A stretch of DNA of 64,000 nucleotides from Acetobacter estunensis (GTDB lineage: Bacteria; Pseudomonadota; Alphaproteobacteria; Acetobacterales; Acetobacteraceae), in NCBI RefSeq assembly GCF_011516945.1, contig NZ_WOTH01000009.1, positions 1-64,000 of the forward strand. Reading direction: 5' to 3'. Of the stretch, positions 13,487 to 48,152 are shown piece after piece. The notes beneath the pieces are model-generated. The model saw only the letters and a list, made by a program, of their open reading frames with translations. It was not told the DNA's origin and made no database searches. The stretch's first letter is position 1, and each line of letters starts with the position of its first letter. A program made the translations under genes and the position numbers.

Positions 13487-13504
13487 TTTTTGCCCCTTTA
13501 AAAC

Positions 13505-14425
13505 TTAAGATATAGTTTTGTTTTGTTTCATCTGCTGCTCGCGCGCGGCGTAGCGCTGGCGCTGCGTGTCCGTGCGTTCGTCATGACAGGCGGAACAGCT
13601 CACGCCTTCTTCATAAAGCGGCGAGCGTTTGTCCTCTTCGCTGATCGGACGGCGGCAGGCGTGGCAGAGATCGTACTGCCCCTGCTTCAGGCCGTGCGTC
13701 ACCGTCACTCTCTTGTCAAAGACGAAACACTCTCCATCCCACAGACTTTCAGCCTCGGGGATGGTCTCCAGATAATTCAGGATACCGCCGCGCAGATGAT
13801 AGACTGCGTCCACGCCTTCCTTCTTCGCCAGTGCCGTTGATTTCTCGCAGCGGATGCCGCCTGTGCAGAACATCGCCACCTTGGGCATGCGGCCCTGCGC
13901 AGCCAGTTCGTCACGACGCTTGCGAAACCACTCCGGAAACTCCCGGAACGTAGCGATATCGGGATCGACCGCACCACGAAACGTCCCCACCGCCACCTCG
14001 TAATCGTTGCGGGTGTCGATCACGAGCGTATCCGGGTCCGAAATCAGCTCATTCCACGCCGAAGGCTCGACATAGGTGCCCACCACCGCGCGGGGATCGA
14101 TATCCGGCTCCCCCATGGTGACGATCTCACGCTTGAGCCGCACTTTCATGCGCCCGAACGGCATCTCGGCGGCGCGGGATTCGCGCACGCCCAGATCGGC
14201 GCATCCCGGCAAAGCACGGATATGCGTCAGCACCTGCTCCATAGCTTCATCGCTTCCGGCGATGGTGCCGTTGATGCCTTCATGCGCCAGCAGAAGCGTG
14301 CCCTTCACACCGAGCGAACAACACAGCTTCGCCAACGGCTGACGCAGCGCCTCGTGGTTGGCAAAAGGAGTGAAACGATAAAGCGCCACCACTCTCACGG
14401 GCAGCAGAGTGTCGTCGGTCATCAT
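13505..14425 (-). CDS. trhO: tRNA uridine(34) hydroxylase (rhodanese family)
   Basis: TrhO (YceA) hydroxylates U34 in tRNAs on the way to 5-(carboxy)methoxyuridine. This 306-residue protein has the N-terminal ferredoxin-like domain ('[18 protein letters not shown]', '[10 protein letters not shown]'), the rhodanese domain with active Cys187 in '[14 protein letters not shown]', and a C-terminal pair of CxxC motifs ('CHAC', 'CSAC'). It starts inside the end of the upstream ABC ATPase gene (4-nt overlap). The last residues (KQNKTIS) are AT-rich and abut the foreign orphan gene, suggesting the 3' end was rebuilt at the insertion junction. Confidence 0.93.
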
Positions 14426-25185: not shown

Positions 25186-26478
25186 ATGAAACGTCTGGAC
25201 AGCCGCACGCCGGAGTTCGAGGCCGGCTTTACCGCCCTACTCGCAGACCGCGAGACCGAAAGCGGACGGGTGGACGCCCCGGTCGCCGCCATTCTTGAAG
25301 CCGTCCGCACGCGGGGTGATGAGGCCATCTGCGAGTTTACCGCCCGCTTCGACCGCATGAAACTGACACCTGACCGGCTCGCCATCCCGGCCGCCGAAGT
25401 GGACGCCGCCATTGCACAGGTGCCCCGCGACCAACTCGATGCGCTGGAAGTCGCAGCCACCCGCATTGAGGCCTTTCATCGCGCCCAACTCCCCACGGAC
25501 ATGGAATTCACCGACGCAGACGGCGTGACGCTCGGTCAACGCTGGACCTCTCTCGATGCCGTGGGGCTGTACGTACCGGGCGGCAAGGCGGCCTACCCCT
25601 CCTCAGTGCTGATGAACGCCATTCCCGCCCATGTCGCGGGCGTGGAGCGGCTGGCCATGTGTGTGCCGACACCCGATGGCGTCCTCAACCCACTGGTGCT
25701 TGCGGCCGCCCGTCGCGCAGGTGTGACCGAAATCTACCGCATCGGCGGCGCGCAGGCCGTAGGTGCTATGGCCTATGGCACAAAGACGATCCGTCCGGTG
25801 GACCGCATCGTCGGTCCCGGCAATGCCTATGTGGCGGAAGCCAAGCGGCAGGTATTCGGTCGCGTGGGGATCGACAGCATCGCAGGGCCGTCCGAAGTGG
25901 TGGTGGTGGCCGACGCCAACAACGACCCGCGACTCGTGGCCCTCGATCTGCTTGCGCAGGCCGAGCACGATGAACTGGCGCAGGCCATTCTCATCACCAA
26001 TGACGCCTCCTTTGCCGATCGTGTGGCCGAAGCCGTCGCCTGCGAACTGGAGACGCTGACACGCCGGGTCATTGCCTCAGCAAGCTGGCGTGATTTCGGT
26101 GCGATCATCCTCGTTCCCGACTGGGACGAGGCGGCGCGTCTGGTGGACCGCATAGCCCCGGAACATCTGGAACTGATGGTGGACGACCCACGCGCCCTCT
26201 TTGCCAAGACAAAGCACGCGGGCGCGGTCTTCCTTGGGCGGTTCTGCCCCGAAGCCGTGGGAGATTATATCGGCGGCCCGAACCATGTGCTGCCGACATC
26301 GCGCACGGCGCGGTTCGCCTCGGGTCTGTCTGTTTATGATTTTCTCAAGCGCACGACGTTCATCGCCGCCGATAAAACCGCACTGGAACGCATCGGTCCC
26401 GCAGGCGTCACACTCGCTCAGGCCGAAGGGCTGGAGGCCCATGCGCTCAGCATTTCGGCCCGGCTGGACAAACGCTGA
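25186..26478 (+). CDS. hisD: Histidinol dehydrogenase
   Basis: HisD oxidises histidinol to histidine in two NAD-dependent steps. The 430-residue protein has 'GLYVPGGKAAYPSSVLM', 'VDRIVGPGNAYVAEAKR', 'IAGPSEVVVVAD', 'LLAQAEHDELAQAIL' and the C-terminal 'PEHLELM' and 'GDYIGGPNHVLPTSRTARF' carrying zinc and catalytic His residues. The start at 25186 has AGAGGA 5 nt upstream; the open frame begins at 25129. It follows hisG by 57 bp. Confidence 0.95.
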   Translation: MKRLDSRTPEFEAGFTALLADRETESGRVDAPVAAILEAVRTRGDEAICEFTARFDRMKLTPDRLAIPAAEVDAAIAQVPRDQLDALEVAATRIEAFHRAQLPTDMEFTDADGVTLGQRWTSLDAVGLYVPGGKAAYPSSVLMNAIPAHVAGVERLAMCVPTPDGVLNPLVLAAARRAGVTEIYRIGGAQAVGAMAYGTKTIRPVDRIVGPGNAYVAEAKRQVFGRVGIDSIAGPSEVVVVADANNDPRLVALDLLAQAEHDELAQAILITNDASFADRVAEAVACELETLTRRVIASASWRDFGAIILVPDWDEAARLVDRIAPEHLELMVDDPRALFAKTKHAGAVFLGRFCPEAVGDYIGGPNHVLPTSRTARFASGLSVYDFLKRTTFIAADKTALERIGPAGVTLAQAEGLEAHALSISARLDKR

Positions 26479-26586
26479 GGCCCAGCCACGCAACCTAAAC
26501 TTGACCGCGGCCCCGTGCCGCGGCCATAACCCCGACCTTGCATTTCCCCAGATGGGACAGGAAACACAGAATGAGTGGAAGCCAGA

Positions 26587-26805
26587 ATGTCTAAAGAGGA
26601 CATGATCGAGTTCAGCGGAACCGTCACGGAGCTGCTGCCCAACGCCATGTTCCGCGTCAAGCTCGACAACGAGCACATGATCCTTGCCCACACGAGCGGA
26701 AAGATGCGCAAGAACCGCATCCGCGTGCTGGCCGGTGACCGTGTGAGCGTAGAGATGACGCCTTATGACCTGACGAAAGGTCGCATCACCTTCCGCTTCA
26801 AGTAA
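26587..26805 (+). CDS. infA: Translation initiation factor IF-1
   Basis: This 72-residue S1-like OB-fold protein has the IF-1 sequence '[20 protein letters not shown]', '[23 protein letters not shown]' and the ending 'GRITFRFK'. It binds the 30S A site at initiation. The start at 26587 has GGAA upstream; the frame is open to 26575. The order hisD-infA-maf-RNase E/G-yacG is a conserved alphaproteobacterial arrangement. Confidence 0.97.
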
Positions 26806-26811
26806 GCCTGC

Positions 26812-27450
26812 GTGACGGGAACACCCGCTCACCCGGGGACAGAGTCGAGTCGCGCGCGCCCTGCGCTCGTGCTCGCCTCCGCGTCTCCCCGCCGTCTGGC
26901 TCTGCTCGCCCAGATCGGACTGACGCCTGATCGCATCGACGCCCCCGACATCGATGAAACGCCCGCACCGCGTGAATTGCCGCGTCCCTATGCCGAGCGT
27001 CTCGCCTGCGCCAAGGCCGAGATCGTCGCCACGCGCACATCCGATCCCGCACTCATTCTCGGAGCCGATACCGTTGTGGCGCTCGGGCGGCGCATCCTTC
27101 CCAAAGCCACCGACCGCGCAACAGCGGAACGCTGCCTCCGCCTGCTTTCAGGTCGTCGTCACACCGTCATCACGGCAGTGGCCGTTCGTCCGTCCGCCGC
27201 ATGGCCGGACGGACGATGTGGGCTGCGCGTGGTCGAGACCGCTGTTGCGTTCTCACGCCTGACCGATACCCAGATCACAGCCCTGCTGGACGGCGGTGAT
27301 TGGGAAGGCAAGGCGGGCGGCTACGCGCTGCAGGGACAGGCCGCCGCCTGCATCCGCTTCGTGTCCGGCAGCCCCTCTGCCGTTATCGGCCTGCCCCTGT
27401 TTGAGACAGCTCAGCTTTTGCGCGGTCAGAAAGGGGCATGGTTACCGTGA
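26812..27450 (+). CDS. maf: Maf-like nucleotide pyrophosphatase
   Basis: Maf proteins hydrolyse nucleoside triphosphates, often modified ones, to monophosphates. This 212-residue member has the loop 'LASASPRRLALLAQIG', 'LGADTVVALGRRILPK', 'RRHTVITAVAV' and 'GGYALQGQAAACIRFVSGSPSAVIGLPL'. It starts with GTG 6 bp after infA and its 3' end overlaps the RNase E/G gene by 13 nt. The subclass (YhdE or YceF) is not settled. Confidence 0.9.
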   Translation: MTGTPAHPGTESSRARPALVLASASPRRLALLAQIGLTPDRIDAPDIDETPAPRELPRPYAERLACAKAEIVATRTSDPALILGADTVVALGRRILPKATDRATAERCLRLLSGRRHTVITAVAVRPSAAWPDGRCGLRVVETAVAFSRLTDTQITALLDGGDWEGKAGGYALQGQAAACIRFVSGSPSAVIGLPLFETAQLLRGQKGAWLP

Positions 27451-28562
27451 CAGATGCCGCCCTACGGGTGGCCTGCTCACCAGGACTGGCCCGGATTGCC
27501 GTTTTCGAAAACGGCACCCTGAAAGATTTTGGCCTGTGGACACCGGGAAAACCGGATCTGCTGGGTGCCGTTTTTCGAGGCCGCGTCGGTAAACTAGCCC
27601 CCACTCTTGGCGGCGCGTTCATCTCGCTTCCCGGTTTTGACAGCGATGGCTTCCTGCCCCTGAAAGAACATCACCCTTCACTGTGCGAAGGTGAGGCCGT
27701 CACCGTGTGCGTGACGCGCGCGCCCATGGGAAACAAAGGGCCACGCCTCAGTCTTGTCCCCGATACGCCTGCGGCCTCTCCGGGACTCCTGAAACCCGGT
27801 CCTTCGGCTCTGGAAGAAATGGCACAGCGCTGGACGGGTGACATTCTGATCGACACGCCGGCTTTTGCTGCCCGTGTACCAAGCCGCTTACGGGAACGTG
27901 TCCGCATCGTCCCGCAAGCATGGGATGAGGACATTGCGGACGCCGTAGAAGCCCTGAGCGTTCCCGATGTCTCCCTGCCCGGCGGCATGACCGCCACCAT
28001 CACGCCCACGCCTGCGCTGGTGGCCATCGACATGGACAGCGGTACGGCAGCAAACGCCTCGCTCCCGAAGCAGACGGCGCAGTTCGCTCTCAACCGTGAC
28101 GCCCTGCCTGAGATCGTGCGCCAGGTTGTTCTGCGCAATCTTTCGGGCGCGATCCTGATCGACCCGGCCGGCCTGTCCACCCGCAAACGACAGGCGCTCC
28201 GCGATTGCGTAGACAGTGCGCTGGAATCCGACCCTCTTCGTGCGCGATGTCTCGGCATCACGGCGCTTGGTCTGATTGAAATCGTGCGTGCCCGCACTCG
28301 CGCCCCGCTGCACGAAGAATTGGCCAGCCCGCACGGACGCGCTTTGGCTGCCCTGCGGGAAGTCGCTGCACACTGCGCGGGTCAATCCGGGCTGCGCCCC
28401 GTGCTGAAAACCGGCACAACACTTGCTCGAGCGCTGGAAGAGGACCCGCTGGCGGTGAACGACGTCACTGTATGGTGTGAACATCCGCTGACGATCGTCA
28501 GCGATCCTTCGCTGCCACCGCTGTCATGGAACCTTGTCGAAGGACGATCCGCACGTGACTGA
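27438..28562 (+). CDS. Compact RNase E/G-family endoribonuclease
   Basis: This 374-residue protein carries an S1-like start ('GAVFRGRVGKLAPTLGGAFISLPG') and the DNase-I-like catalytic region with 'ALVAIDMDSGTA' (Asp198) and 'SGAILIDPAGL' (Asp242), corresponding to the two catalytic aspartates of RNase E/G. It ends 'VEGR' plus a few residues. It is much shorter than E. coli RNase G (about 490). I see no CPxC zinc link, which holds RNase E dimers together. It may therefore differ in oligomeric state. Its 5' end overlaps maf and its 3' end overlaps yacG. Confidence 0.82.
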   Translation: MVTVTDAALRVACSPGLARIAVFENGTLKDFGLWTPGKPDLLGAVFRGRVGKLAPTLGGAFISLPGFDSDGFLPLKEHHPSLCEGEAVTVCVTRAPMGNKGPRLSLVPDTPAASPGLLKPGPSALEEMAQRWTGDILIDTPAFAARVPSRLRERVRIVPQAWDEDIADAVEALSVPDVSLPGGMTATITPTPALVAIDMDSGTAANASLPKQTAQFALNRDALPEIVRQVVLRNLSGAILIDPAGLSTRKRQALRDCVDSALESDPLRARCLGITALGLIEIVRARTRAPLHEELASPHGRALAALREVAAHCAGQSGLRPVLKTGTTLARALEEDPLAVNDVTVWCEHPLTIVSDPSLPPLSWNLVEGRSARD

Positions 28563-28740
28563 ACAGACCCGTTGCCCCATCTGTGGCAAGCCGAGCGCGC
28601 CCGCTTTTCGCCCCTTTTGCTCACGACGCTGCGCCGACGTGGATCTGGGACGCTGGTTTTCCGGTGATTACCGCGTGCCGGAACCGATTGCTGAGGAAGA
28701 AGGCGAAAAATCTCGCGATGATGACGATCTGCTGTCTTGA
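28555..28740 (+). CDS. yacG: DNA gyrase inhibitor YacG (zinc finger)
   Basis: This 61-residue protein has the zinc motif 'CPICGKP...FRPFCSRRCADVDLGRWFSGDYRVP' (four Cys), the full YacG signature, and an acidic tail. YacG binds GyrB and inhibits gyrase in E. coli. GTG at 28555 is preferred, with AAGGA about 10 nt upstream; TTG at 28534 would add seven residues. It overlaps the RNase gene by 8 nt. Confidence 0.9.
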   Translation: MTEQTRCPICGKPSAPAFRPFCSRRCADVDLGRWFSGDYRVPEPIAEEEGEKSRDDDDLLS

Positions 28741-28806
28741 TCTTCGTCGCCTGTCGGGTTAAACGCCTTTCCATGCCTGACGGGGACACGTTCCCTTCAG
28801 CACGGT

Positions 28807-28882
28807 GCCCAAGTAGCTCAGTTGGTAGAGCATGCGACTGAAAATCGCAGTGTCACTGGTTCGATCCCGGTCTTGGGCACCA
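28807..28882 (+). tRNA. tRNA-Phe (anticodon GAA)
   Basis: This 76-nt cloverleaf has acceptor GCCCAAG/CTTGGGC, D arm GCTCAGTTGGTAGAGC, anticodon loop CTGAAAA with GAA, T arm ACTGG-TTCGATC-CCGGT and an encoded CCA end. It closes the hisG-yacG block and marks the left limit of an AT-rich segment. Confidence 0.97.
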
Positions 28883-29160
28883 CTCTAGCTAATGCGTCTG
28901 GAAAACTGGTTTCCAGATGTCCAGCCTAAGTCTCAGACAATCAATTCATGATCTCCTTAGCCTTAAATATATTTAAGGGGAAAATCTCACTCGTCGATAG
29001 TAGACCAAGCTCAGAAATCAATAAAATTGAAATCTTTCAAACCATTTTCGTTTCAAAAAAAATACTAATTTATTAATAATATTTCATTATATTTGGAGTG
29101 CATTTTTTCTTAGCTTACACAGAGCAATATTCATTTCTAAAAATATTGATTGTAGCCCTC
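28883..29160. other. AT-rich gap after tRNA-Phe
   Basis: GC content falls sharply within about 80 bp of the tRNA. The gap holds an 8-bp inverted repeat TCTGGAAA/TTTCCAGA just after the tRNA, which could be a transcript end, and the palindrome listed separately. No copy of the tRNA 3' end was seen further right that would mark an integration site. Confidence 0.6.
28961..28978. repeat. 18-bp perfect palindrome
   Basis: CCTTAAATATATTTAAGG reads identically on both strands. It lies 183-200 bp before the start of the AT-rich membrane protein gene and could be an operator for a dimeric regulator. Confidence 0.8.
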
Positions 29161-29883
29161 ATGAGCAATGCAAAAAAACCTTGTAAATCTGTAGAATGTG
29201 ACGACATTACAAAAATATTGATTGACGCTGTGAAAGGAAGATTAATTACAAGAGGCGGAATGTCGCTTGGAAAGAAAAGATCATTTTGCTTATTTTCTGG
29301 TCTCATATTTGTTGGAGGGGCACTTGCCGCCGCCATATTCTTTGACCCACGGTGGACGCCCCTTAGTAGCGAAAATATTGCGCTTTATTTAGGAAAAATA
29401 CGCGTTGCCATTTTTGTCATTTATCTTTTCGGCTTATTCTTGGTATTTGGCAGTCAAATTTCTTTTCGTGGCCCATTAGCATCTATTACAGAAAATACCC
29501 TCCCTTCGATTGAAAATGGCGTAATACTTTATAACAAATTGAGTGGATTTAATGAAAATGACCTTGAATATGCTGTCTTTCTTTTTCGGCAGCATTTAGG
29601 AGTGGAGGGAAAAGGACCAAAAGCATTTTTGGGCATTTTTTCTAGAATAGGCTCCGTAGTCCCATTAATCTCCTCTCTTTTCCCGATAATAAATTTATTC
29701 AATGGCGGATATCGATCTGGAATATTTTCTATATTCTGCGTTTTATTCTTTGTTATTTCGATTTTAGCGATCTTATGGAATGCCGCAGTGTCTCGGGGCG
29801 AGCGAATAGCTGACATTGCCGATTATGTCATTGCGCATGCGTATGAAGATGATAGCTCTTCAGCGGAAAGTTCTGATAAATAA
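29161..29883 (+). CDS. AT-rich orphan membrane protein of unknown function
   Basis: I do not recognise a family. The 240-residue product has a polar N-terminus with 'DITKILIDAVKGRLI', then four likely membrane segments: 'FCLFSGLIFVGGALAAAIFF', 'VAIFVIYLFGLFLVFG', 'GSVVPLISSLFPIINLF' and 'IFSIFCVLFFVISILAILW'. A soluble stretch of about 60 residues lies between the second and third. The tail is Ser/Glu/Asp-rich. Base composition is far from the neighbours, pointing to transfer. ATG at 29161 is chosen; the frame opens with GTG at 29098, where GGAG is too close to serve it. Confidence 0.65.
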   Translation: MSNAKKPCKSVECDDITKILIDAVKGRLITRGGMSLGKKRSFCLFSGLIFVGGALAAAIFFDPRWTPLSSENIALYLGKIRVAIFVIYLFGLFLVFGSQISFRGPLASITENTLPSIENGVILYNKLSGFNENDLEYAVFLFRQHLGVEGKGPKAFLGIFSRIGSVVPLISSLFPIINLFNGGYRSGIFSIFCVLFFVISILAILWNAAVSRGERIADIADYVIAHAYEDDSSSAESSDK

Positions 29884-30065
29884 ATCGCCCCAAGCCCAGT
29901 GACGCTTACTGAGAGTTCTTGAGGATTTTTCTCGCTCAAGATCTCATTTATCTTCACGGATATTCCGAGACCACATTTTTCGTGATGCGCCACACCGTTT
30001 TAAAGACGCAGGTCACACACAGGCATCCAAGGCTGTCCAGACATTGGTGCCAAAAGCGTTCTTTA

Positions 30066-30440
30066 CTACATAGCCAACGCCCGAAACCGTGCAAACTCAG
30101 GCTGCCCGCTGAACAGAAACAGCATGTAGTAATCAAGATAATGCCGCCGGTTCCGCGCTACTTTCGTATAGAACGGATACACATCATACGGCCCAAGTAA
30201 ATCCGGCGGGCGCGGATCACTCTCCAGAATACATTTCGCACGAAACAGCGGCACATAGGTTGCCGCACTGTCGTCGTCGCGCCTGCGGACATGAAAAAGA
30301 TTCCTGCGAAAATTCTTCAACTTGTCCGGCAGGACAAAGACAATTCCCTTCTCGATGAACGGTCGGGGAAATGTCTCGGGACGCATGTAACGCACACTGT
30401 CCGGCATGTCGCAGAAATACGGGTGATCCAGAACGATCAC
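30066..30440 (-). CDS. Hypothetical protein downstream of gyrB
   Basis: This 124-residue Arg/Phe/Tyr-rich protein ('HPYFCDMPDSVRYMRPETFPRPFIEKGIVFVLP', 'DLLGPYDVYPFYTKVARNRRHYLDYYMLFLFSG') belongs to no family I recognise. A GTG start at 30440 has GGAG 6 nt upstream, which argues for a real gene. It lies 69 bp after the gyrB stop on the same strand and could be co-transcribed. It has no clear membrane helix or signal peptide. Confidence 0.6.
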   Translation of the reverse strand: MIVLDHPYFCDMPDSVRYMRPETFPRPFIEKGIVFVLPDKLKNFRRNLFHVRRRDDDSAATYVPLFRAKCILESDPRPPDLLGPYDVYPFYTKVARNRRHYLDYYMLFLFSGQPEFARFRALAM

Positions 30441-30509
30441 GAAGACACTCCGGCTATAGGCAGACCGCCTCCCACCGCACCTGAAAAGATACGGCGGAAG
30501 ACATGATCC

Positions 30510-32996
<2,487 letters not shown>

Positions 32997-33084
32997 TTAT
33001 AGCCGCTCGGAAGGCTGCGGACCAGCAGACACAGCCCATAGTTGCCGGATGAAACGGAACTTTCGCTCTCGTTACGCGTGGACA

Positions 33085-34221
33085 TCACTCCTCCTTCAGC
33101 CGTCCATCTTCCAGATGCACGAAAGCCGCCCGGTTCTCCAAAGGTGCAAACGGCTCACGATCCGTACCTGTGAGCAGAACGGGTGTTGAAAAATCGAGCA
33201 ATGTTTCCAGCAACGCTTCACGACGGCGCGTATCCAGATGCACCAGCGGTTCATCCAGCAACAGCATGGGCGGCACGTGCCCGCCCGCCCCCATAAGCCG
33301 GGCATGCGCAAGAATGATTCCGATCAGCAGGGTTTTCTGCTGTCCCGTGCTTGCTTCCGCCGCGTTGCGAGCCGTCTCACGGTCATGCAGGGCAAAATCG
33401 GTGCGATTGGCGCCCAGTGTCGCCAGCCCACGCGCACGATCCAGCGCTCGGTTCGCGCGCAACTGCTGACGCAGCCAGTCTTCCACAGCAAGAGCAGGCT
33501 CTTCCTCCAGCCGTTGCGCGATAGCGCAGACCAGCGAGAGTTCAGCGGATGGAAACGCCCCACGTGGATCGGCGCCCGTCCTGTTGAGCTGCGCCACCAG
33601 ATCGCGCCGTGCCGCCACCACCGCGACACCATGCCGGGCCATCGCGTCTTCAATGGCCGCCAGCCATATGTCATCCACCTGCCCCACACCCAGCATCTTG
33701 TTCCGCTGGGCTGTGGCGCGTTCGCAGGCGGCAAGCTCGCGCGCGTGATGCGGCGTCATGGAAACCACCAGCCGATCGAGGAATCGCCGCCGACCGCTCG
33801 TGCTTTCCCCGAACAACCGGTCCATCTGGGGCGTGAGCCATACGGCCGAAAGATACTCCGCTATCGCCCCGCGCCCGCGCAGGGCCACCCCGTCAAGCAG
33901 GAACCGCCGCGCACCGCCATCGCGTCCCGCTTCCATACCGGTGGCCACTTCGAAAGAACCATTCGTGTCGCTGAATTTTGCGGTAACACCCCAACCGCCC
34001 GCACTTGCAGGCGTCCCATCCGGTGCACGCAGGGGAAGATCGGCATTCCGCGCGCCCCGCAGCCCGCGACCGGGGACGAGAAGAGACAGTCCCTCAAGGA
34101 GGTTGGTTTTGCCGCTGCCGTTATCACCGGTGAGGACAATGGGTGAGCGCGAGGGCTCCCACACCAAACGGGTGTAGTTGCGAAAATCCGTAAGAATGAG
34201 GCGCTGAAGTCGCGTCATCAT
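33085..34221 (-). CDS. recF: DNA replication and repair protein RecF
   Basis: This 378-residue SMC-like ATPase has Walker A 'LTGDNGSGKTNLLEGLSLL', the signature region 'ASTGQQKTLLIGIILA' and Walker B 'PPMLLLDEPLVHLD'. RecF helps load RecA at single-strand gaps with RecO and RecR. It begins 34 bp after the dnaN stop. The ATG pair at 34221/34218 leaves the exact start open by one codon. Confidence 0.96.
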   Translation of the reverse strand: MMTRLQRLILTDFRNYTRLVWEPSRSPIVLTGDNGSGKTNLLEGLSLLVPGRGLRGARNADLPLRAPDGTPASAGGWGVTAKFSDTNGSFEVATGMEAGRDGGARRFLLDGVALRGRGAIAEYLSAVWLTPQMDRLFGESTSGRRRFLDRLVVSMTPHHARELAACERATAQRNKMLGVGQVDDIWLAAIEDAMARHGVAVVAARRDLVAQLNRTGADPRGAFPSAELSLVCAIAQRLEEEPALAVEDWLRQQLRANRALDRARGLATLGANRTDFALHDRETARNAAEASTGQQKTLLIGIILAHARLMGAGGHVPPMLLLDEPLVHLDTRRREALLETLLDFSTPVLLTGTDREPFAPLENRAAFVHLEDGRLKEE

Positions 34222-34255
34222 GAGGGCCGGGACAACCGCCCCGGCCTGCGCGATC

Positions 34256-35380
34256 TCAGACGCGCATCGGCATCAGGACATAGAGCGCAGACGGGCTGTC
34301 CACGTCCCGCACAATGGTGGGCGCGGAGCTGTCGGCAAAGACGAACTCCACTTCCTTGGCGACCTGATCGGTGATGTCGTTGAGATAACGCGCCTGAAAG
34401 CCGATCTCCATGTCGTCACCGTCATAGGTCACGCGGTTATCGTCGAGTTCTTCCTTCGCGGTCCCCTGATCCGAACTGGAGGCTGACAGCACCAGCAGAT
34501 CACGGGAAAGGGCAAGCTTGACCGGACGCGAGCGCTCCTGACTGATGGCCGCCACACGTGCCACGGCATCGGAGAAATCCTTCTTGCCGACGCGCAGGGT
34601 GCGATCGTTTCCTGCCGGAATGACGCGCTGGTATTCAGGGAACGTGCCGTCGATCAGCTTGGAGGTGAGCGTGATGGACCCGACCGTAAACTGGATGCGT
34701 GTGTCCGATACGGCCACCTCCACTTCTTCAGGCGCCTCATCAAGCAGCTTGCGCACCTCGCCCACGGTCTTGCGTGGGATGATCACACCCGGCATCCCCG
34801 CAGCACCCGCCGGCAATTCGGTTTCCACACGCGCAAGACGATGACCATCGGTCGCAACCGCGCGCAGCAGGCCGCCAGCGTCACCTTCCGCGACATGCAT
34901 GTAAATGCCGTTGAGGTAATAGCGCGTCTCTTCCGTGGAAATGGCAAAGCGCGAGCGGTCGATCAATGATTTCAGCACAGCGCTGTTGAGGCGGAACTGA
35001 TGCGGCAGATCGCCCGCGATCATCGAAGGAAAATCGTCCACCGAGAGCGCGTTCAGTCGGGTTGTGTAACGCCCGGCCCTGAGGTCGAGCTGCGCGTCTG
35101 CCCCCGGATGGCTCAGCTCCACTTCCACCCCGTCGGGCAGTTTGCGCACGATTTCATAAAGCACGGCCGCAGGTGCCGTAGCGGCGCCCGGCGTATCGAT
35201 CGTAGCGGGCACTTCCTCGACAATGGCGATTTCCATGTCGGTGGCCGTGAGCGACAGACGACCGTTGCTCGTGTCGATGAGCACATTGGCGAGGATGGGG
35301 ATGGTGTTCCGCTTCTCGGCAACGCTCTGAATGTGCGCGAGAGCCTTGAGCAGCGTGGCGCGATCGGCCGTGAACTTCAT
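34256..35380 (-). CDS. dnaN: DNA polymerase III beta sliding clamp
   Basis: This 374-residue three-domain clamp has 'MKFTADRATLLKALAHIQSVAEKRNTIPILANVL' as its typical start and ends 'SALYVLMPMRV', the usual C-terminus. The start at 35380 matches the family; the frame extends to 35416. AAGGA lies about 10 nt upstream. It lies between dnaA and recF. Confidence 0.97.
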   Translation of the reverse strand: MKFTADRATLLKALAHIQSVAEKRNTIPILANVLIDTSNGRLSLTATDMEIAIVEEVPATIDTPGAATAPAAVLYEIVRKLPDGVEVELSHPGADAQLDLRAGRYTTRLNALSVDDFPSMIAGDLPHQFRLNSAVLKSLIDRSRFAISTEETRYYLNGIYMHVAEGDAGGLLRAVATDGHRLARVETELPAGAAGMPGVIIPRKTVGEVRKLLDEAPEEVEVAVSDTRIQFTVGSITLTSKLIDGTFPEYQRVIPAGNDRTLRVGKKDFSDAVARVAAISQERSRPVKLALSRDLLVLSASSSDQGTAKEELDDNRVTYDGDDMEIGFQARYLNDITDQVAKEVEFVFADSSAPTIVRDVDSPSALYVLMPMRV

Positions 35381-35513
35381 CGACACCTGTTCCTTCGTGG
35401 GGTGCATTCTGCGCACCGTGCGGACGCCATATGCGCCCCTGAAATCGGGTGTTGCAGTTTAGGGAAGCGGGAGTCGCGCGACAAGGGCCGCGCCATGATT
35501 TCGCCCGTTTTCC

Positions 35514-36977
35514 TCAGCTTTCCAGCATCCGGCGCAGAAGCTCCACATCCTCGGCAAAAGCCCCATCCCGCTCCATCAGTTCCTGCACACGCGAGACGGC
35601 GTGCATGACGGTAGTGTGGTCGCGGTTGCCGAATTTGCGTCCAATTTCGGGAAGGGAGCGGCTGGTCAACTGCTTGGCCAGATACATCGCAACCTGCCGA
35701 GGCCGGGCCACGGCACGAGCGCGGCGGGCCGAGGACATATCCGTCAGACGGATGTTCCAGTGTTCGGCAACCTTGCGCTGGATTTCCTCAATCGTCACGC
35801 GGCGATCATGCGCCTTGAGAATGTCGTGAAGGACGTCCTGCGTGGACTCCAGCGTGATGGGGCGCCCGAACAGATTGGCATGCGCGATCAGGCGATTGAG
35901 CGCGCCCTCCAGTTCACGAACATTGGAGGTGATCTTGTGAGCGAGGAACTCCAGCACCTTGCCCGGCACGTGCACGCCCGACGCCGTGGCCTTCGCTTCC
36001 AGAATGGAGATGCGCAGCTCGAATGTCGTGGCGTGAATATCGGCCACCATGCCGCAACCAAGGCGGGTGCGCAGACGATCTTCAAGCCCAGAGAGATCGG
36101 AAGGCGACTTGTCCGCCGACACCACGATCTGACGTCCCGCATCCACAAGGGCATTGAACGTGTGGAAGAACTCTTCCTGCGTGTTGTCTTTGCCAATGAG
36201 GAACTGAAGATCGTCGATCATCAGGACATCCACGGAACGCAGATGGTCTTTAAACTCCACGGTGGACTGAGAACGGATGGCGGCGATGAAGCGATACATG
36301 AACTTTTCGGCGGACATATAGGCCACCGAAATACCGCCATTGCGCATCAACTCCGCACCGATCGCGTGCATCAAATGCGTCTTGCCGAGCCCGACGCCAC
36401 CGTAGAGGAACAGCGGGTTGAAACCGACGCTGGACGGTTTCTCAGCCACACGCCGCGCGCAGGCATAGGCAAATTCATTGGGCTTGCCGACAACGAAGGT
36501 GTCAAAGGTAAAGCGCGGGTCCAGTGGCACGGCCAGATCGGAACGCATGTCGCTGGCGCGATCGGAAACAGGAGCCGCGGCTGGCTCTGGCACCGGAGCA
36601 CTCTCTGAAGGTTCAGCGGCAATCGGCGCTGCCGGTCTCTCTCCCGGCCGCATGACCTGAAGCTCCACGCGACGAATGGCCGGGATTTCCTGATTCCACA
36701 GCGTGTTGAGGCGATCGCCATACTGTGTGCGCACCCAGTCACGCAGAAAGCGCGTGGGAAGCAGCAGCGTCACCTCATCTTCTTCAACCGGCCCAAGAAC
36801 GATCTGCTGGAGCCAGGTGCGATATTCAACGTCACCCACCTCTGTCCGCATCCGCTCGGCAATGCGCGCCCAGGCATCCGCAAGCAGACCGTTGCCGCCA
36901 GATGAAACCGGGGCAATCGGTTCAGCTGCGGCGCGGGCGGAACCTGCTGACATTTCGGAGGAAGGTGGCACCGGCAT
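35514..36977 (-). CDS. dnaA: Chromosomal replication initiator DnaA
   Basis: This protein of about 487 residues has the N-terminal DnaB-contact domain ('ADAWARIAERMRTEVGDVEYRTWLQQI'), a Pro/Ala linker, the AAA+ domain with Walker A 'YGGVGLGKTHL' and Walker B 'VLMIDDLQFL', and the C-terminal DNA-binding domain with 'GNRDHTTVMHAVSRV'. Start 36977 is chosen because AGGAA lies 4-5 nt upstream. Further in-frame ATGs lie up to 37040. Confidence 0.97.
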   Translation of the reverse strand: MPVPPSSEMSAGSARAAAEPIAPVSSGGNGLLADAWARIAERMRTEVGDVEYRTWLQQIVLGPVEEDEVTLLLPTRFLRDWVRTQYGDRLNTLWNQEIPAIRRVELQVMRPGERPAAPIAAEPSESAPVPEPAAAPVSDRASDMRSDLAVPLDPRFTFDTFVVGKPNEFAYACARRVAEKPSSVGFNPLFLYGGVGLGKTHLMHAIGAELMRNGGISVAYMSAEKFMYRFIAAIRSQSTVEFKDHLRSVDVLMIDDLQFLIGKDNTQEEFFHTFNALVDAGRQIVVSADKSPSDLSGLEDRLRTRLGCGMVADIHATTFELRISILEAKATASGVHVPGKVLEFLAHKITSNVRELEGALNRLIAHANLFGRPITLESTQDVLHDILKAHDRRVTIEEIQRKVAEHWNIRLTDMSSARRARAVARPRQVAMYLAKQLTSRSLPEIGRKFGNRDHTTVMHAVSRVQELMERDGAFAEDVELLRRMLES

Positions 36978-37368
36978 CGATTTCCTGCAGATTCGCGCTC
37001 CCATCTTCATGCCCATGGAAACGCAGCGCGCCTCCCGCATGAATCAGGAACATCCAGTTCCATAAACACACGCCCGAACGCCGCGTTGCGGCATCCAAAC
37101 GCTCTCGCCTCATTCCAACGCAGTTACTTGCCGCACCGGAATTCCGGGCGGAACACTCCTGACAGCCGCGAAACGCGCACAGGAGTCGTCAGGGACGATG
37201 GTAACTCACGCTAATAGGGCCGGCAGGGGAACTCAACGATTTTCCCCGAACACAGGCACGTTGGGAGACGGCATCTCTTCCCACCCTGTGAACACGTAAA
37301 TGCCCGCTCTCCGCAAGGAGACACGGGCATTCACCAGTTCTACCTTCTGGACCGTATACGGACGACCC
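36978..37368. other. dnaA upstream region with clustered inverted repeats
   Basis: This 391-bp stretch holds no gene. It contains CCGGAATTCCGG, a perfect 12-bp palindrome at 37136-37147, and ACTCCTG (37155-37161) paired with CAGGAGT (37180-37186), nested with CCTGAC/GTCAGG. The rpsT terminator is at its right end. No good DnaA box (TTATCCACA) was seen, so calling it the replication origin is not supported. It must carry the dnaA promoter. Confidence 0.5.
37299..37331 (-). terminator. Hairpin after rpsT
   Basis: AATGCCCG and CGGGCATT form an 8-bp outer stem, with an inner TCTCC/GGAGA stem and a small loop. It lies 38 bp after the rpsT stop. No long T tract follows, so it may act weakly or with Rho. 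Confidence 0.6.
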
Positions 37369-37638
37369 TCAGGCCGCCGCAAGCGCCTTAATGCGGGCCG
37401 ACAGACGGGAAATCTTACGAGCGACCGTGTTGCTGTGCATCACGCCCTTGGTGGCTGCGCGCTGGATTTCCGGCTGAGCCAGCTTCAGGGCCGCATTCGC
37501 CTCGTCCTTGTTGCCGCTCGCAATGGCGGTCTCGACCTTCTTGATGAAGGTGCGCACGCGGGACTTGCGTGCCGTGTTGCGAGCAGTACGACGCTCCGTC
37601 TGACGGATGCGCTTACGGGCAGATGCGATGTTCGCCAT
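37369..37638 (-). CDS. rpsT: 30S ribosomal protein S20
   Basis: This 89-residue very basic helical protein has the S20 sequence '[21 protein letters not shown]', '[14 protein letters not shown]' and '[22 protein letters not shown]'. It binds 16S rRNA early in 30S assembly. It lies alone between the dnaA upstream region and mutM and has its own hairpin terminator. Confidence 0.98.
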
Positions 37639-37738
37639 GTTTCTGTGTCTGATCCAGCAAGAAGGTCAATGTGAGTGGGGATGCACAGCCGCACCCGCCA
37701 AATGAGGTGGCCTCTCTAAGCCACACGCCACCCACACG

Positions 37739-38662
37739 TCAAGCAGACTTCACTTTGACGGCCTTCCGACCGGTCTTTCCCGTAGGAGCCGTGTCTTTAT
37801 TCACGGATTCCGCCTGAAGACGTGGACAGAAGAAAGTGGAGCGGCCTGACTGCGTGATGCGCCGGATTCCCGGACAAACGGGCCCATCTGCCTCCAACCC
37901 GCAGTCAGGGCAAGACTGCCCCTCGCGCCCATAAACCCGCCATGCGTGCTGAAAATAACCCAACTCGCCATCCGGCTGAACATAGTCACGCAGACTCGAA
38001 CCGCCGGCCGCAATAGCCTCCCCCAGCACAGCACGGACAGCCGCCACAAGCCGGTCGCAGGCTACGCGGTCCAGCAGAGCACTCGGGGTCGCAGGATGGA
38101 TACGCGCACGGTAGAGCGCTTCGCACACATATATATTACCCAAGCCCGCCACGATGCGCTGATCCAGCAACGCCATCTTGATGGGCGTCCCGCGCCCCGC
38201 CAGCGCCGATGCAAGAAAGGCACCCGTGAAAGCCGCCTCCAGCGGTTCAGGCCCCATACTCCCCAGCAGGGAATGACGGTCTTCGCCTGCGGTCGGCACG
38301 ATATCCAACGCGCCGAACCGCCGGGGATCCACCAGCCCAAAGCGCTTCCCGCCTCGCGTGGTGAACGCCACATGCTCATGTGGCACCGCTACATCTTCCG
38401 CAGAGCCGCCCTCCCCAAGATTGACGCGGCCTGACATTCCCAAGTGCAGCAGGACAGACTGACCACCCGAAAGACGCATCAGAATGTATTTTCCACGCCG
38501 ACGAAAACTCTCAATGCGTTTGCCCGCAAGCCGATCGGCAAGACCGACAGGCATGGGCCAGCGCAGATCGGGCCGGCGCACGGAAGCGGTGGCGATTACG
38601 TCACCTTCAAGAGCGGCTTTCATGCCGCGCATCACGGTTTCGACTTCAGGGAGTTCTGGCAT
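37739..38662 (-). CDS. mutM: Formamidopyrimidine-DNA glycosylase with altered zinc finger
   Basis: This bifunctional 8-oxoguanine glycosylase/AP lyase has the catalytic N-terminus '[17 protein letters not shown]' (Pro1 after Met removal, Glu2), '[10 protein letters not shown]', 'LLHLGMSG' and '[15 protein letters not shown]'. The C-terminal zinc finger is odd: Cys251, Cys254 and Cys279 are present, but the fourth position of the usual 'FCPxCQ' is Leu282 ('FCPRLQ'). An extra Cys263 lies in an enlarged loop. A Lys-rich tail of about 23 residues follows. The start at 38662 is fixed by the catalytic N-terminus. Confidence 0.93.
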
Positions 38663-38690
38663 GACGGCAAAGAGGCTATAGAGTGTGCCC

Positions 38691-39485
38691 ATGACCGACA
38701 ATGCCTCTCCCGACCTGCATGCCCCCGCCCCACCGGACGACCTGAGTGGTGCTGACACCACCGATTTCGGCTACCGCGCCGTCCCGCGCGAGGAGAAGAA
38801 GCCCCTCGTACGCGCCGTGTTCGACAGCGTGGCGAATCGCTATGACGTAATGAACGATCTGATGTCGCTGGGCGTCCATCGTGTCTGGAAGCGCATCTTC
38901 AATGCCGAACTCGCCCCCCAGCCCGGTCTGAAACTGCTCGATCTCGCGGGCGGGACAGGTGACGTGACCTTCGGGTGGCTCGCCGGTGGCGGTGGGCCAG
39001 CCATCATGACCGACATCAACGTCAACATGCTCTCGGTAGGCCGCGACCGCGCCATCTCTCGTGGGTTTGTCTCGGACCTGTCCTTCTGTGTGGTGGACGC
39101 GGAGCAGATTCCCCTTCCCGACCGCTGTATGGACCGCGTGACCATCTCGTTCGGCCTGCGCAACTGCACCGACAAGATGGCCGTGCTCCGCGAGGCAAGG
39201 CGTGTGCTCAAGCCGGGCGGGCGCTTCCTCTGTCTCGAATTTTCCCGTGTGCAGGTCGCGGCTCTCGCCCCGATCTATGACGCATGGTCCTTCAAGGTTC
39301 TGCCCGCCATGGGCACGTTCGTCGCCAAGGACCGTGAGAGTTACCAGTATCTGGCCGAGAGCATCCGCATGTTCCCCGATCAGGAAACGCTCGCGGATAT
39401 GTTCCGCGAGGCCGGCTTCACGCAGGTGCGTTACACCTCTCTCTCAGGGGGAATCGCGGCCATCCATTCCGGCTGGAGACTCTGA
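38691..39485 (+). CDS. ubiE: Ubiquinone/menaquinone biosynthesis C-methyltransferase
   Basis: This 264-residue SAM-dependent methyltransferase has '[25 protein letters not shown]', motif I '[13 protein letters not shown]', and '[37 protein letters not shown]', the full UbiE signature. It methylates the benzoquinol ring in ubiquinone synthesis, consistent with the Q-dependent oxidative metabolism of acetic acid bacteria. Its start lies 28 bp from the divergent mutM start, so the promoters overlap. GTG at 38685 is an alternative start. coaBC follows after 3 bp. Confidence 0.96.
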
Positions 39486-39488
39486 ACC

Positions 39489-40895
39489 ATGGCCGCTGCC
39501 GCACCGGATGACACCGTGACCGCCCTGCGTGGGCGCGTGCTTCTGATCGTCGGCGGCGGCATTGCTGCTTACAAGATACTCGAACTCGTGCGGCTGCTCA
39601 CGGCGGCCCATATCGATGTGCGCTGCGTGCTCACAAAAGCCGGCGCCGAATTCGTAACGCCGCTCTCGCTTCAGGCTTTGAGCGGCCATCCGGTGCATCA
39701 GGATCTGTTTTCCCTGACCGACGAGCAGGAGATGGGCCATATTGCCCTGTCCCGCTCGGCTGATCTGCTGGTCGTGGCCCCGGCCACCGCCGACCTTCTG
39801 GCCAAGATGACGGTGGGGCTGGCCAACGATCTGGCGTCCACCCTCCTGCTGGCCACCGACACCCCTGTCCTCGCAGCGCCTGCCATGAACGTGCGCATGT
39901 GGGAACACCCCGCCACACGTGCCAACGTGGCCACGCTGAAAGCGCGAGAAGTCGAGTTCGTCGGACCGGATGAAGGGATGATGGCCTGCGGGGAATATGG
40001 ATTCGGACGGCTGGTGGAGCCGCCGGTGCTGCGCGATGCCATCCTTGCGCGGCTCAACATCGCATCGCCCACGTCCGGTTCAGCAGAACCGCACGCATCC
40101 TCGACCATGACCTGCCCTCGAACAGAAACCGGCTCGTCCTGCGACATCGTCCCCGGCGGGACTGTCGTGCGCTCCTCCGTGGAAACGGTGGACGGCACGA
40201 CGCTGTGGAAGCCGCTTCTTGGCCGTCACGCTCTCGTCACGGCCGGTCCGACGCATGAACCGATCGACCCGGTGCGCTATCTCGGCAACCGCTCTTCCGG
40301 CCTTCAGGGGTACGCCATTGCGGAGGCATTGGCCGCTCTGGGAGCGCGCGTCACACTTGTCAGCGGTCCCACCAATCTTCTGGCTCCTGCGGGCGTGACG
40401 CTTCGGCGCGTGGAAACGGCTCTGGAAATGGAGCAGGCCGTGCGGGATGCGCTTCCCGCCGATATTGCCGTCTGCGCCGCGGCTGTGGCGGACTGGCGGG
40501 TGACGAACGCCGTCACGTCCAAGATCAAGAAAAGCGCGGACGCCATGCCGCCTTCGCTGCATCTTGTTCCCAACCCGGACATTCTCGCGGCCCTCTCCGC
40601 GCCCGGCCCACACAGACCTTCTCTTGTGGTGGGTTTCGCCGCCGAGACGGACGATGTGGAAGCCAACGCCATCGCCAAACGCAAACGCAAGGGCTGCGAC
40701 TGGATCGTGGCCAATGACGTATCGGTCGGCACGAACGTGATGGGCGGCACGGAGAACACCGTGCTTCTCATCACATCCGATGGCGTGGAACACTGGCCCC
40801 GCATGACCAAGACCGATCTTGCCCTCAGGCTGGCGCGGCGCATCGCGCGCCGTTTCGGTGCACCCGCCCTTTCTGCCGATGGAGACATGAACTGA
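39489..40895 (+). CDS. coaBC: Bifunctional phosphopantothenoylcysteine decarboxylase/phosphopantothenate-cysteine ligase
   Basis: The N-terminal half is the FMN-dependent CoaC ('[21 protein letters not shown]', active His in '[26 protein letters not shown]', '[13 protein letters not shown]', '[13 protein letters not shown]' with its active Cys). The C-terminal half is the CTP-dependent ligase CoaB ('[24 protein letters not shown]', 'AAAVADWRV'). A linker of about 45 variable residues joins them, making 468 in all. It carries out two steps of coenzyme A synthesis. Confidence 0.96.
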
Positions 40896-40938
40896 TGCCG
40901 TCTTTCGGCTCTTCCCTCATTCCGGCCGCCCACTCCGT

Positions 40939-41403
40939 ATGAGCGCGCAAAACATCCGCGTGGCCGTCCAACGTCTGCCCCATGCCCACGATCTTCCTCT
41001 GCCGACCTATGCCACGACAGGCGCGGCGGGCATGGATTTCGTGGCCGCCGTGGACGCACCCGTGACCATTCTGCCCGGTGGACGCGCACTGATCCCGACG
41101 GGGCTGTGCATCGCCCTCCCACCCGGTTTCGAATTGCAACTGCGTCCGCGCTCGGGGCTGGCGCTCAAGCATGGCATCACCCTGCCCAATGCTCCCGGCA
41201 CCATTGACGAAGATTATCGCGGCGAGATCGGCGTGATCGTAATGAACGCCGGACAGGAGCGCTTTACCGTGGAGCGCGGCATGCGCATCGCTCAGGGCGT
41301 GCTCGCCCCCGTTTTCCGTGCGACATGGGACGAGACGGACAATCTCGACGCAACAGCGCGCGGCGCAGGCGGCTTTGGCAGCACCGGCACACAAACGCCC
41401 TGA
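40939..41403 (+). CDS. dut: Deoxyuridine 5'-triphosphate nucleotidohydrolase
   Basis: The five dUTPase motifs are in order: '[11 protein letters not shown]', '[12 protein letters not shown]', '[16 protein letters not shown]', '[14 protein letters not shown]' and the C-terminal 'GAGGFGSTG' that closes over the substrate. At 154 residues it is the normal trimeric form. It converts dUTP to dUMP, limiting uracil in DNA. It lies 43 bp after coaBC. Confidence 0.97.
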
Positions 41404-41464
41404 ACGGACACCTCCGCACGGAGCATCAGGAGATGAGTGAAACAGCCCGAAAGCAGCGACCGGC

Positions 41465-43225
41465 ATGACCGACGATGGTTATTCCGCCGAAGCTGAACCT
41501 CCACACTCACCGCGCACCCGCGACCGGCTCGCCATGGCGGCCTGCCTGTCCGGGATTCTGATCGCCATCGGCGCCTTTACCGCCCGGATGGACACCCTTC
41601 CGGCTCATCCTTTTTCCCTCCACGCGGATGATCCTTCGCTCCCGGCCATGCTGGAGGCCGTCGGCATAACCGGCCTACGGATCGTCGGGTGCCTGATCCT
41701 TGCATTTGGCTTCTCGCTCGGCAGCCTTGCCCTCACCACAGGCAGCACTTTCCGCCGTCATACCGCACTTCGTGCGCTCGACATGCTTAGCTTTGTGCCG
41801 GTTTGCGGGCTTGCGGCCCTAGGCGTTCCGCTTGTCTTTGGGCCGTCCCTCCTGCCTTTCGATGCACGGATGGCGGGCGAACTGCTCATCGATGGCGTAG
41901 GCGCCGCAGCCCTCGCCTTTCCCGTGGCCTCCGCCGTGCTGCGCGCACGCGATACGCTGCCGATTCCTCTCATGATGGTCACACAGGGATTCAGGCTGCG
42001 CGCGTGGCCTTCATTCTGGCGGCTTCATGTTCCTTTCGTCATGCCGGCCCTTGCACACGCCACCGTCCGCGCCATGCCACAGACATGGACCGGACTTGTA
42101 CTGGCGGAAATGGTGGTGGAGTTTCATGCGCTCCCGGTGGCACAGGGACTGGGCGCACAGGCCGCCGCCGCGATGGAGCATGAGGACATCGCACGTCTGA
42201 GCGTCCTCATTGGCCTGACAGCCGTGCTTGTGGGGCTGATCGACCACCTGTTGATCCGGCCTTTCCGTCGCTGGTCTGGCCGTTTCGAGGAACATGGCCG
42301 CAGCACCGAAGCGGGCCTTATACGCCTCCTCAAGCGCCTTGCTCCAACCCGTCTCCTTCTCGAAGGGCTGACACACCTTATGGAAGCCGCTGGCACCCTG
42401 CCGCTGGGCGCACGTCCGGTGGCGCACAAGCTAAGCCTTTCCCGCAACCTGCCCGTGCTGGAATCGGTGCCGTGGATAGCGGGGCTGTGCGGATTGGCCC
42501 TTGCGCTGTTCATTGGCCCGTCTTTTCACGTGCTGAAAACGATTGGCGTCATCCTCACAGCGTGCCTTGCAAGTGTAGTGGCCCTTGTAGCGTTGCTCGC
42601 CCTGAACTCGCTGGTCTGGCTGCCTCTCTCTTTCTGGCTGGCGGGCCGGTCGAAAAAAATCGCGACGCCTCTTCTGGCCGCTGCGCGCTTTCTTATCCTT
42701 TTTCCTGTCTTTCTGCTGTTTCCTCCCATCATGACGGCCGCAGGCCCATTCTCCGGTCTTGTCCCGTTCCTGTTCTTCGGCTTTCCATCGATCCTGCTTC
42801 TCCGCCTGAGCGAGAGCGCACGCCTGTTTCCCCGTTCTTTTCTCGATGTCATGCGGGTTTATCGTATCCCCTCCCGCCTGAGATGGATGCGGATCATCCT
42901 GCCGGGTCTTCGCCCGGCATGGATCGTGGGATGCCGTCGGGCCTCCTTCTGGATGTGGAACGCCTCCATCGCAGCGGCCGTGACGGTGTGGGGCGAGCGC
43001 ACGTTTGACGGAGGCTTCGGGATCGGCAGTCAGGTCGCCACGGCGCTAAGGGACGAAGACCCGCTTGCCGGAACCTGCGCTCTGGCCGCCATCACCTTTC
43101 TTGCCGTGCTGTGCGATGAAGGATTACGCCGCACACCGGGACCGGGCTTGGCATTCCAGCCCGATGAAGACACCAGCCAGCGTACACAGGCGTCTGTGAA
43201 CGACCTGCCGCCAGCCGCTCTCTGA
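41465..43225 (+). CDS. Tandem-domain ABC transporter permease (sulfonate/nitrate-type), no ATPase nearby
   Basis: This 586-residue protein has about 12 membrane helices in two homologous halves. Each half carries a degenerate EAA-type loop: 'MMVTQGFRLRAWPSFWRLHVPFVMPALAHATV' and 'VMRVYRIPSRLRWMRIILPGLRPAWIVGCRRASFWMW'. Both resemble SsuC/TauC-type permeases. In other Alphaproteobacteria such fused permeases sit beside an ATPase, but none is encoded here: dut precedes and map follows. It may use an ATPase encoded elsewhere or have lost transport. The start at 41465 is the first ATG and has no strong site. Confidence 0.75.
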   Translation: MTDDGYSAEAEPPHSPRTRDRLAMAACLSGILIAIGAFTARMDTLPAHPFSLHADDPSLPAMLEAVGITGLRIVGCLILAFGFSLGSLALTTGSTFRRHTALRALDMLSFVPVCGLAALGVPLVFGPSLLPFDARMAGELLIDGVGAAALAFPVASAVLRARDTLPIPLMMVTQGFRLRAWPSFWRLHVPFVMPALAHATVRAMPQTWTGLVLAEMVVEFHALPVAQGLGAQAAAAMEHEDIARLSVLIGLTAVLVGLIDHLLIRPFRRWSGRFEEHGRSTEAGLIRLLKRLAPTRLLLEGLTHLMEAAGTLPLGARPVAHKLSLSRNLPVLESVPWIAGLCGLALALFIGPSFHVLKTIGVILTACLASVVALVALLALNSLVWLPLSFWLAGRSKKIATPLLAAARFLILFPVFLLFPPIMTAAGPFSGLVPFLFFGFPSILLLRLSESARLFPRSFLDVMRVYRIPSRLRWMRIILPGLRPAWIVGCRRASFWMWNASIAAAVTVWGERTFDGGFGIGSQVATALRDEDPLAGTCALAAITFLAVLCDEGLRRTPGPGLAFQPDEDTSQRTQASVNDLPPAAL

Positions 43226-43304
43226 AAGGCCTCACTTCGCGTGTTGCACCTGCTCCTCAAAGGGGGCATGGTCCGCCCGTCTTTTCAAACCTTGGGGGAG
43301 CACC

Positions 43305-44108
43305 ATGGAGGGCAAGCCGTCACGCCGCGAGATCATCCTGCATGATGAGGCGGATTTCGCCGGATTGCGGGCCGCAGGCAAGCTGGCCGCCGAAACACTG
43401 GACATGATCACCGATCATGTCCGCATCGGTGTCACGACCGAGGAACTCAACACCCTCATCCACGACTTCACGCTGAAAAACGGCGCCACGCCAGCCACGC
43501 TGAATTACCGCGGCTATCCCAAATCGTGCTGCATCTCCATCAACCATGTGGTCTGTCACGGCATTCCGGGCGACCGCAAACTCGTGGACGGCGACATCCT
43601 CAATATCGATGTCACATCCATCCTCGATGGCTGGTACGGCGACAGCAGCCGGATGTACACGGTCGGCAAAACGCCCATCAAGGCACAGAAGCTGGTCGAT
43701 GTGACTTATGACGCCACGATGGCCGGCATTGCCGCCGTGCGTCCCGGCGCAACGCTGGGCGATATCGGTTACGCCATCCAGACACTGGCGGAAAAGAACC
43801 GCTTCGGCGTGGTGCGGGATTTCTGCGGACACGGCATCGGGCGCACCTTTCACGCGGCTCCCAACGTGCTGCATTACGGTCGTCCGGGCGAAGGGCTGAA
43901 GCTGGAAGCCGGGATGGTCTTCACCATCGAGCCGATGCTCAATATCGGCAAGCCGGATGTGAAAATCCTCGATGATGGCTGGACAGCCGTCACCCGCGAC
44001 CGCACGCTCTCGGCCCAGTTCGAGCACATGATCGGTGTGACGAAAGACGGCTGCGAAATCTTCACCCTCTCCCCGAAAGGCTACACCCGACCGCCTTACA
44101 AGGATTGA
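43305..44108 (+). CDS. map: Methionine aminopeptidase, type I
   Basis: This 267-residue metalloprotease removes N-terminal Met. Landmarks are 'NYRGYPKSCCISINHVVCHGIPGDR', the metal ligands in 'ILNIDVTSILDGWYGDSSRMY', 'FCGHGIGRTFHAAPNVLHYG', 'GMVFTIEPML' and 'SAQFEHMIGV'. GGGGGAG lies just before the ATG. ggt begins 4 bp after its stop. Confidence 0.96.
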   Translation: MEGKPSRREIILHDEADFAGLRAAGKLAAETLDMITDHVRIGVTTEELNTLIHDFTLKNGATPATLNYRGYPKSCCISINHVVCHGIPGDRKLVDGDILNIDVTSILDGWYGDSSRMYTVGKTPIKAQKLVDVTYDATMAGIAAVRPGATLGDIGYAIQTLAEKNRFGVVRDFCGHGIGRTFHAAPNVLHYGRPGEGLKLEAGMVFTIEPMLNIGKPDVKILDDGWTAVTRDRTLSAQFEHMIGVTKDGCEIFTLSPKGYTRPPYKD

Positions 44109-44112
44109 TGTC

Positions 44113-48068: not shown

Positions 48069-48152
48069 GGCCTCACCGCTGGCCGCTCTGGCTCCTTACG
48101 TCAAGGAAAACTGAGGGCGATAACTGCCCCCTCGCCTCCCTAATCTTAAAAC

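Follow-up and report, generated by a model that had tools for sequence, protein, structure and literature searches.

The AT-rich stretch that follows tRNA-Phe in Acetobacter estunensis (RefSeq assembly GCF_011516945.1, contig NZ_WOTH01000009.1) is probably the cargo that a hotspot of gene exchange at the 3' end of that tRNA carries at present. This reading is favoured because the tRNA and the genes of the flanks are conserved while the DNA between them is exchanged wholesale among close relatives, and because in one relative, G032, an integrase element occupies the same tRNA-Phe, delimited by 49 bp in which the 3' part of the tRNA is repeated. Here the window denotes the whole 64,000-nucleotide stretch of DNA that was analysed, and all positions are counted from its first base. 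The cargo carries one gene, orf261, which belongs to a protein family that is unnamed in the libraries searched.

The exchanged segment and its borders

Relative to G062, the nearest relative found, the window is collinear over 26225-28885 at 95.1% identity without gaps, and collinear again over 30075-46004 at 95.4%. Unbroken identity reaches 28882, the last base of tRNA-Phe, the alignment itself ends at 28885, and the right edge falls in the last codons of orf124 (Table 1). Between these edges G062 has 1136 bp of unrelated AT-rich DNA (GC 0.415) with a 180-codon ORF, and a search for the DNA of the segment in 6 nearby genomes gave no DNA-level match anywhere. An insert that starts at the 3' end of a tRNA and is absent from relatives is characteristic of tRNA islands, and both properties are found here. 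The composition changes at the same point, from a GC of about 0.62-0.65 to 0.34-0.40 directly after tRNA-Phe, and recovers to 0.57-0.61 in the composition windows starting at 30250 and 30500; the segment as a whole stands at 0.383 versus 0.599 for the entire window. The sharp drop noted in a preliminary description of this DNA is thus borne out, and so is its view of the stretch as an AT-rich island, with the correction that the island, placed there at 28883-29883, has its right end at 30074.

Table 1. Features of the tRNA-Phe locus, with positions in the window
Feature	Position	Strand	Remarks
tRNA-Phe (GAA)	28807..28882	+	ARAGORN; left border of the hotspot
Variable segment	28886..30074		1189 bp, GC 0.383; unrelated 1136 bp (GC 0.415) in G062
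Stem-loop	28894..28920	+	Directly after tRNA-Phe, within the swapped segment; RNA fold z -2.67
18-bp perfect palindrome CCTTAAATATATTTAAGG	28961..28978		One this long in 7 of 1000 segment shuffles
orf261, four-TM protein	29161..29883	+	240 aa from ATG 29161; 261 codons from GTG 29098
orf124	30066..30440	-	Faces the insert, right border; last codons differ across the junction at 30075

Across the 64 kb (base 106 onward) there are three breaks in the comparison with G062, at 12029-13526, 28886-30074 and 46005-48125. The first corresponds to only 58 bp in G062 and is a plain presence/absence insert; the likeness that had been drawn between it and the segment behind tRNA-Phe is only partly apt, the segment being replaced in G062 by other DNA. 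The third also lacks a counterpart in G062, where other DNA of about 2.2 kb takes its place; in the window it holds a putatively antiporter-like ORF of 420 codons and a second membrane ORF.

Of the ORFs in the segment, orf261 is the longest (29098-29883 on the forward strand when counted from the GTG), and the next-longest lying wholly inside the segment, of 95 codons, is on the opposite strand within orf261 itself. Translation probably starts at ATG 29161: the closest homologue begins at the corresponding position, and the upstream GTG fits less well. The GC of the gene by codon position (0.44/0.40/0.32) is unlike that of gyrB (0.66/0.44/0.71), which marks orf261 as foreign in composition. 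The protein has four hydrophobic segments, at residues 43-61, 82-100, 159-177 and 187-205, in agreement with the earlier account of a lone gene for a four-helix membrane protein.

Two smaller features lie between the tRNA and the gene. The perfect palindrome that had been pointed out ahead of the gene is present, and is mild evidence at most, given that the 64 kb contain five palindromes of at least 18 bp and that, when the AT-rich segment is shuffled 1000 times by mononucleotide, one this long arises in 7 of the shuffles. The stem-loop directly behind the tRNA folds better than expected (61-nt fold, z -2.67, with 1 of 200 shuffles folding equally well), the corresponding part of G062 shows no folding beyond that of its shuffles (z -0.72), and a search for a terminator-like site found none; the structure may possibly represent a 3' hairpin of tRNA-Phe.

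Signs of mobility were sought within the segment and at its ends. No integrase or other mobility gene is present in the segment, the tyrosine recombinase of G032 has no credible match in the window (best E 0.39), and the 13 integrase matches in the genome to which the window belongs are all on other contigs. Within 28883-30110 the longest exact match to the tRNA is 9 bp, and a far-end direct repeat of the 3' part of the tRNA, such as the 49-bp repeat of G032, was not found in the segment. The preliminary description, in stating that neither an integrase nor a duplicated tRNA end is visible, was therefore accurate, and its suggestion of a remnant or a small cargo at a tRNA integration site gains support from the replacement in G062 and from the integrase element of G032.

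Cargo turnover at tRNA-Phe and the origin of the segment

Comparison of the locus across the genus, which had been proposed as a check, revealed variable cargo at the same spot. tRNA-Phe was found in all 49 genomes searched (best match 91-100% identical), and orf124 was matched in 39 of the 49; the DNA downstream of the tRNA was examined over up to 1.5 kb in 30 genomes and over one longer stretch each in 20, 16 of these being 19-20 kb. Five genome pairs have an upstream identity of at least 93.5%, and in two of them, the genome of the window (G000) with G062 (94.3%) and G017 with G034 (94.0%), there is no downstream DNA in common until the right flank. The other three pairs (G020/G065, G005/G022 and G008/G033) keep their downstream DNA, so that exchange is not constant. 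Different and unrelated cargos lie between conserved flanks in G000 versus G062, and in G012/G034, G017/G027 and G032 versus each other. Their contents are diverse and include a 342-codon ORF in G012 and G034, a CdiI_N protein in G020, to which an ORF of G065 is near-identical, and CRISPR-like repeats with a period of 61 bp, presumably of type I-E from the look of the repeat, of which there are eight in G017 (L036 376-823) and two in G027 (L040 459-540). Tandem Repeats Finder returned no row over the G017 array, and its repeats were read from the sequence and counted. Partial integrase matches occur just behind tRNA-Phe in G016 (E 5.6e-7) and G036 (E 4.1e-6). A search of the literature on tRNA-Phe hotspots and Acetobacter islands found nothing on this locus.

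An integrase element is present at this tRNA in G032. A tyrosine recombinase of 419 codons (PF00589, 30.2 bits against a cut-off of 27.1) comes after tRNA-Phe, and about 14.5 kb beyond the tRNA there is an exact 49-bp repeat composed of the final 46 bp of the tRNA and 3 bp more. The element also carries a transposase, a DUF6876 protein and Abi_alpha (30.2 bits, cut-off 29). A 239-aa homologue of orf261, 35-37% identical and in opposite orientation, sits just past the repeat and so outside the repeat-bounded element, with moaC and then cytochrome b after it. In the G032 relatives G017, G012, G034 and G027 the order is tRNA-Phe, other DNA, then moaC and cytochrome b. In G017, contig C1 has orf124 with gyrB at about 6.7 kb and tRNA-Phe at 1,094 kb, and from this separation the tRNA-Phe/orf124 neighbourhood of the window (28882-30440) looks like a rearrangement junction.

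One way in which the hotspot could have acquired its present content is that orf261 arrived with an integrase element at tRNA-Phe and that the integrase and the far repeat were later lost. Integration at the tRNA followed by loss would account for the left edge, and G032 supplies a present-day example. By an alternative route, the cargo would have been copied in through recombination at the flanks. A purely recombinational origin, in which homologous exchange between the conserved flanks (to the left an RNase gene, a yacG-like gene and tRNA-Phe, to the right orf124 and gyrB) swapped the cargo and no integrase acted at this copy, is credible, with the balance somewhat against it. Recombination at the flanks accounts for the missing mobility genes, the segment having retained neither an integrase nor an att repeat, and horizontal-transfer hotspots between core genes that are free of mobile elements are described by Oliveira et al. 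(2017; PMC5635113). It sits less well with the identity to G062, which stays level as far as either edge and shows no import tract (one pair, a weak test), and with a left edge placed at the end of a tRNA where a relative has an integrase element.

It is unlikely that the ancestor shared by G000 and G032 already had orf261 next to tRNA-Phe and that the gene was lost or replaced elsewhere. Only two family genomes were found to have the gene, and both have it at tRNA-Phe, directly behind the tRNA in the window and directly behind its 3' repeat in G032, as such an ancestor would predict. The two copies are, however, in opposite orientation, their identity of 35-37% compares with 62% for the neighbouring RNase gene, their codon-position GC differs, and four relatives of G032 (G017, G012, G034 and G027) have other DNA at the site. 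The cargo of an exchange hotspot remains the preferred description of the segment.

The orf261 family and its possible role

The family is rare. At E 0.001, orf261 has a match in 2 of 49 genomes of the genus and in 2 of 397 drawn from the family, the window's own genome being counted in each case and G032 being the second family carrier; with 395 family genomes lacking a match and unrelated DNA at the site in G062, the gene is not a syntenic component of the family, which had been named as the outcome that would undo the reading as an island. Profile searches at E 0.01 gave matches in 4 of 385 genomes drawn from the class, of which G463 was kept besides the window, and in 6 of 398 drawn from the phylum (window included in both), of which G980 and G943 were kept. 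At E 0.001, 3 of 312 genomes drawn from the order of G980 matched, adding G1070 and G1092; of the 3 genomes in the order of G463 one matched, and the other two are without a homologue. Among plasmids there was a single distant match, in a Caballeronia record (E 2e-4), and searches of viral contigs, phages and named genome contigs reported no relatives. Left out of the family alignment were two weak matches (G597 and G722, E ~0.005) and three partial ones (G821, G877 and G822, E 9.8e-5 to 0.0025, one with in-frame stops).

In all, the searches by sequence and by profile connect orf261 with 7 other proteins, giving a family of eight. Leave-one-out profiles recover 8 of 8 members (E 2.5e-15 for the protein of the window), the best E among controls consisting of 200 shuffles and one reversal of each being 0.013; the scores of the L077 and L078 members are inflated, these two sequences being near-identical. 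All eight aligned members have four hydrophobic segments with a middle loop of 58-73 residues. Only 5 of the 8 carry a net positive charge in their N-terminal stretch, so that the membrane topology is not firm. The earlier statement that the protein has no recognised family is upheld by the library searches: Pfam and PADLOC gave orf261 no match up to E 1, NCBIfam gave one far below its cut-off (E 0.32), and PHROGs, searched with the window protein, gave nothing better than E 0.059. Across the family, Pfam at E 0.1 matched none of the 8 members, PADLOC none of 6 (orf261 at E 1 and, at E 0.1, the five homologues other than those of G1070 and G1092) and NCBIfam none of 3 above the cut-off. The structure prediction that had been recommended for the membrane protein was run with AlphaFold in single-sequence mode and gave no usable fold (pLDDT 52, pTM 0.29, too poor for a fold search), so that the function of orf261 draws no support from a fold; a search of solved structures for relatives returned nothing credible (best E 0.14).

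The homologue in G463 is, like orf261, a lone AT-rich gene (GC 0.324 in a stretch of 0.675). Elsewhere the enrichment in AT is mild, with GC values of 0.493 in G032 (adjoining moaC 0.556), 0.611 in 0.691 in G943, 0.546 in 0.598 in G980, 0.529 in 0.547 in Caballeronia and 0.558 in 0.589 in G1070. The neighbours of several homologues are of a kind associated with defence or conflict. In G980 the homologue begins 25 bp downstream of a HipA_C gene (ATG start assumed) and lies near PDC-M21A/B (E 2.5e-68 and 5.2e-90), a PADLOC defence candidate that a literature search did not find mentioned; in G943 it is 4 bp downstream of a gene with NYN and OST-HTH domains (GTG start assumed). A CHAT-domain gene is near the Caballeronia homologue, and in G1070 and G1092 the DNA adjoining the homologue is exchanged, one of them having a type IV restriction-like gene (E 7e-6). 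To these may be added the CdiI_N protein that G020 carries as cargo behind tRNA-Phe. These neighbour matches are raw co-occurrences from few genomes, several of them weak, and are to be read without a background rate. A 402-bp repeat in G980 (95.5%; L064 6369-6769 and 9051-9450) brackets the PDC-M21A/B block, the homologue following 62 bp beyond it in a layout like that of G032. In G1070 and G1092 the differing DNA beside the homologue lies at L077 8896-9437 and L078 8464-9389 and contains one small AT-rich ORF in either genome, the two stretches being 92-94% identical elsewhere.

Since several homologues stand near defence-like genes, orf261 may tentatively be regarded as a membrane-acting effector of phage defence or of a similar conflict system. 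The protein would be located in the inner membrane, both termini and the conserved loop of about 60-70 residues being cytosolic, and would disturb the membrane when triggered. A broader and more doubtful proposal is that the family comprises undescribed four-helix membrane defence effectors that are spreading through the Pseudomonadota, sometimes as the single gene of an AT-rich cargo and sometimes coupled to HipA or an NYN nuclease as a toxin-like partner. A relationship to MotA/ExbB had been suspected from topology and motif resemblance, and it is very improbable that orf261 is a MotA/ExbB/ZorA-like ion-driven protein with four helices and a cytosolic loop: topology alone speaks for it, and a profile-profile comparison against 20 MotA/ExbB proteins gave no support (probability 0.6%, score 19.0 versus 14.0 and 12.7 for reversed controls). 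As a rare family, carried as mobile cargo and found near defence-like genes, orf261 and its relatives are a concrete candidate for testing.

Comparison with known systems

Small helical membrane effectors are a recognised kind of component in abortive infection and other anti-phage systems. The orf261 protein resembles the membrane effectors of abortive infection in being small, multi-helical and accessory, with defence-like neighbours in several genomes. Unlike known anti-phage proteins, the family members tried have no match above cut-off in PADLOC, Pfam or NCBIfam (three members for the last).

The tRNA-Phe hotspot itself is an ordinary, known kind of thing, and its interest lies in showing cargo exchange at a tRNA cleanly and on a small scale. 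Within a single genus one can see swapped alleles, partial integrase matches and an integrase element that is intact, so that tRNA-Phe is here a good place to seek unknown accessory genes. With the hotspots of Oliveira et al. (2017; PMC5635113) the locus shares the turnover of small cargo between conserved flanks and, at the copy in the window, the lack of a mobility gene; it differs from what is set out there in that flank divergence is not raised in the one pair tested. Compared with the islands that tyrosine recombinases establish at tRNA 3' ends, the segment in the window is reduced, having neither integrase nor repeat and only one gene in about 1.2 kb. It resembles them in its left edge at the 3' end of a tRNA and in its AT-rich foreign DNA, and in G032 the same tRNA-Phe harbours an integrase element closed by an exact 49-bp repeat.
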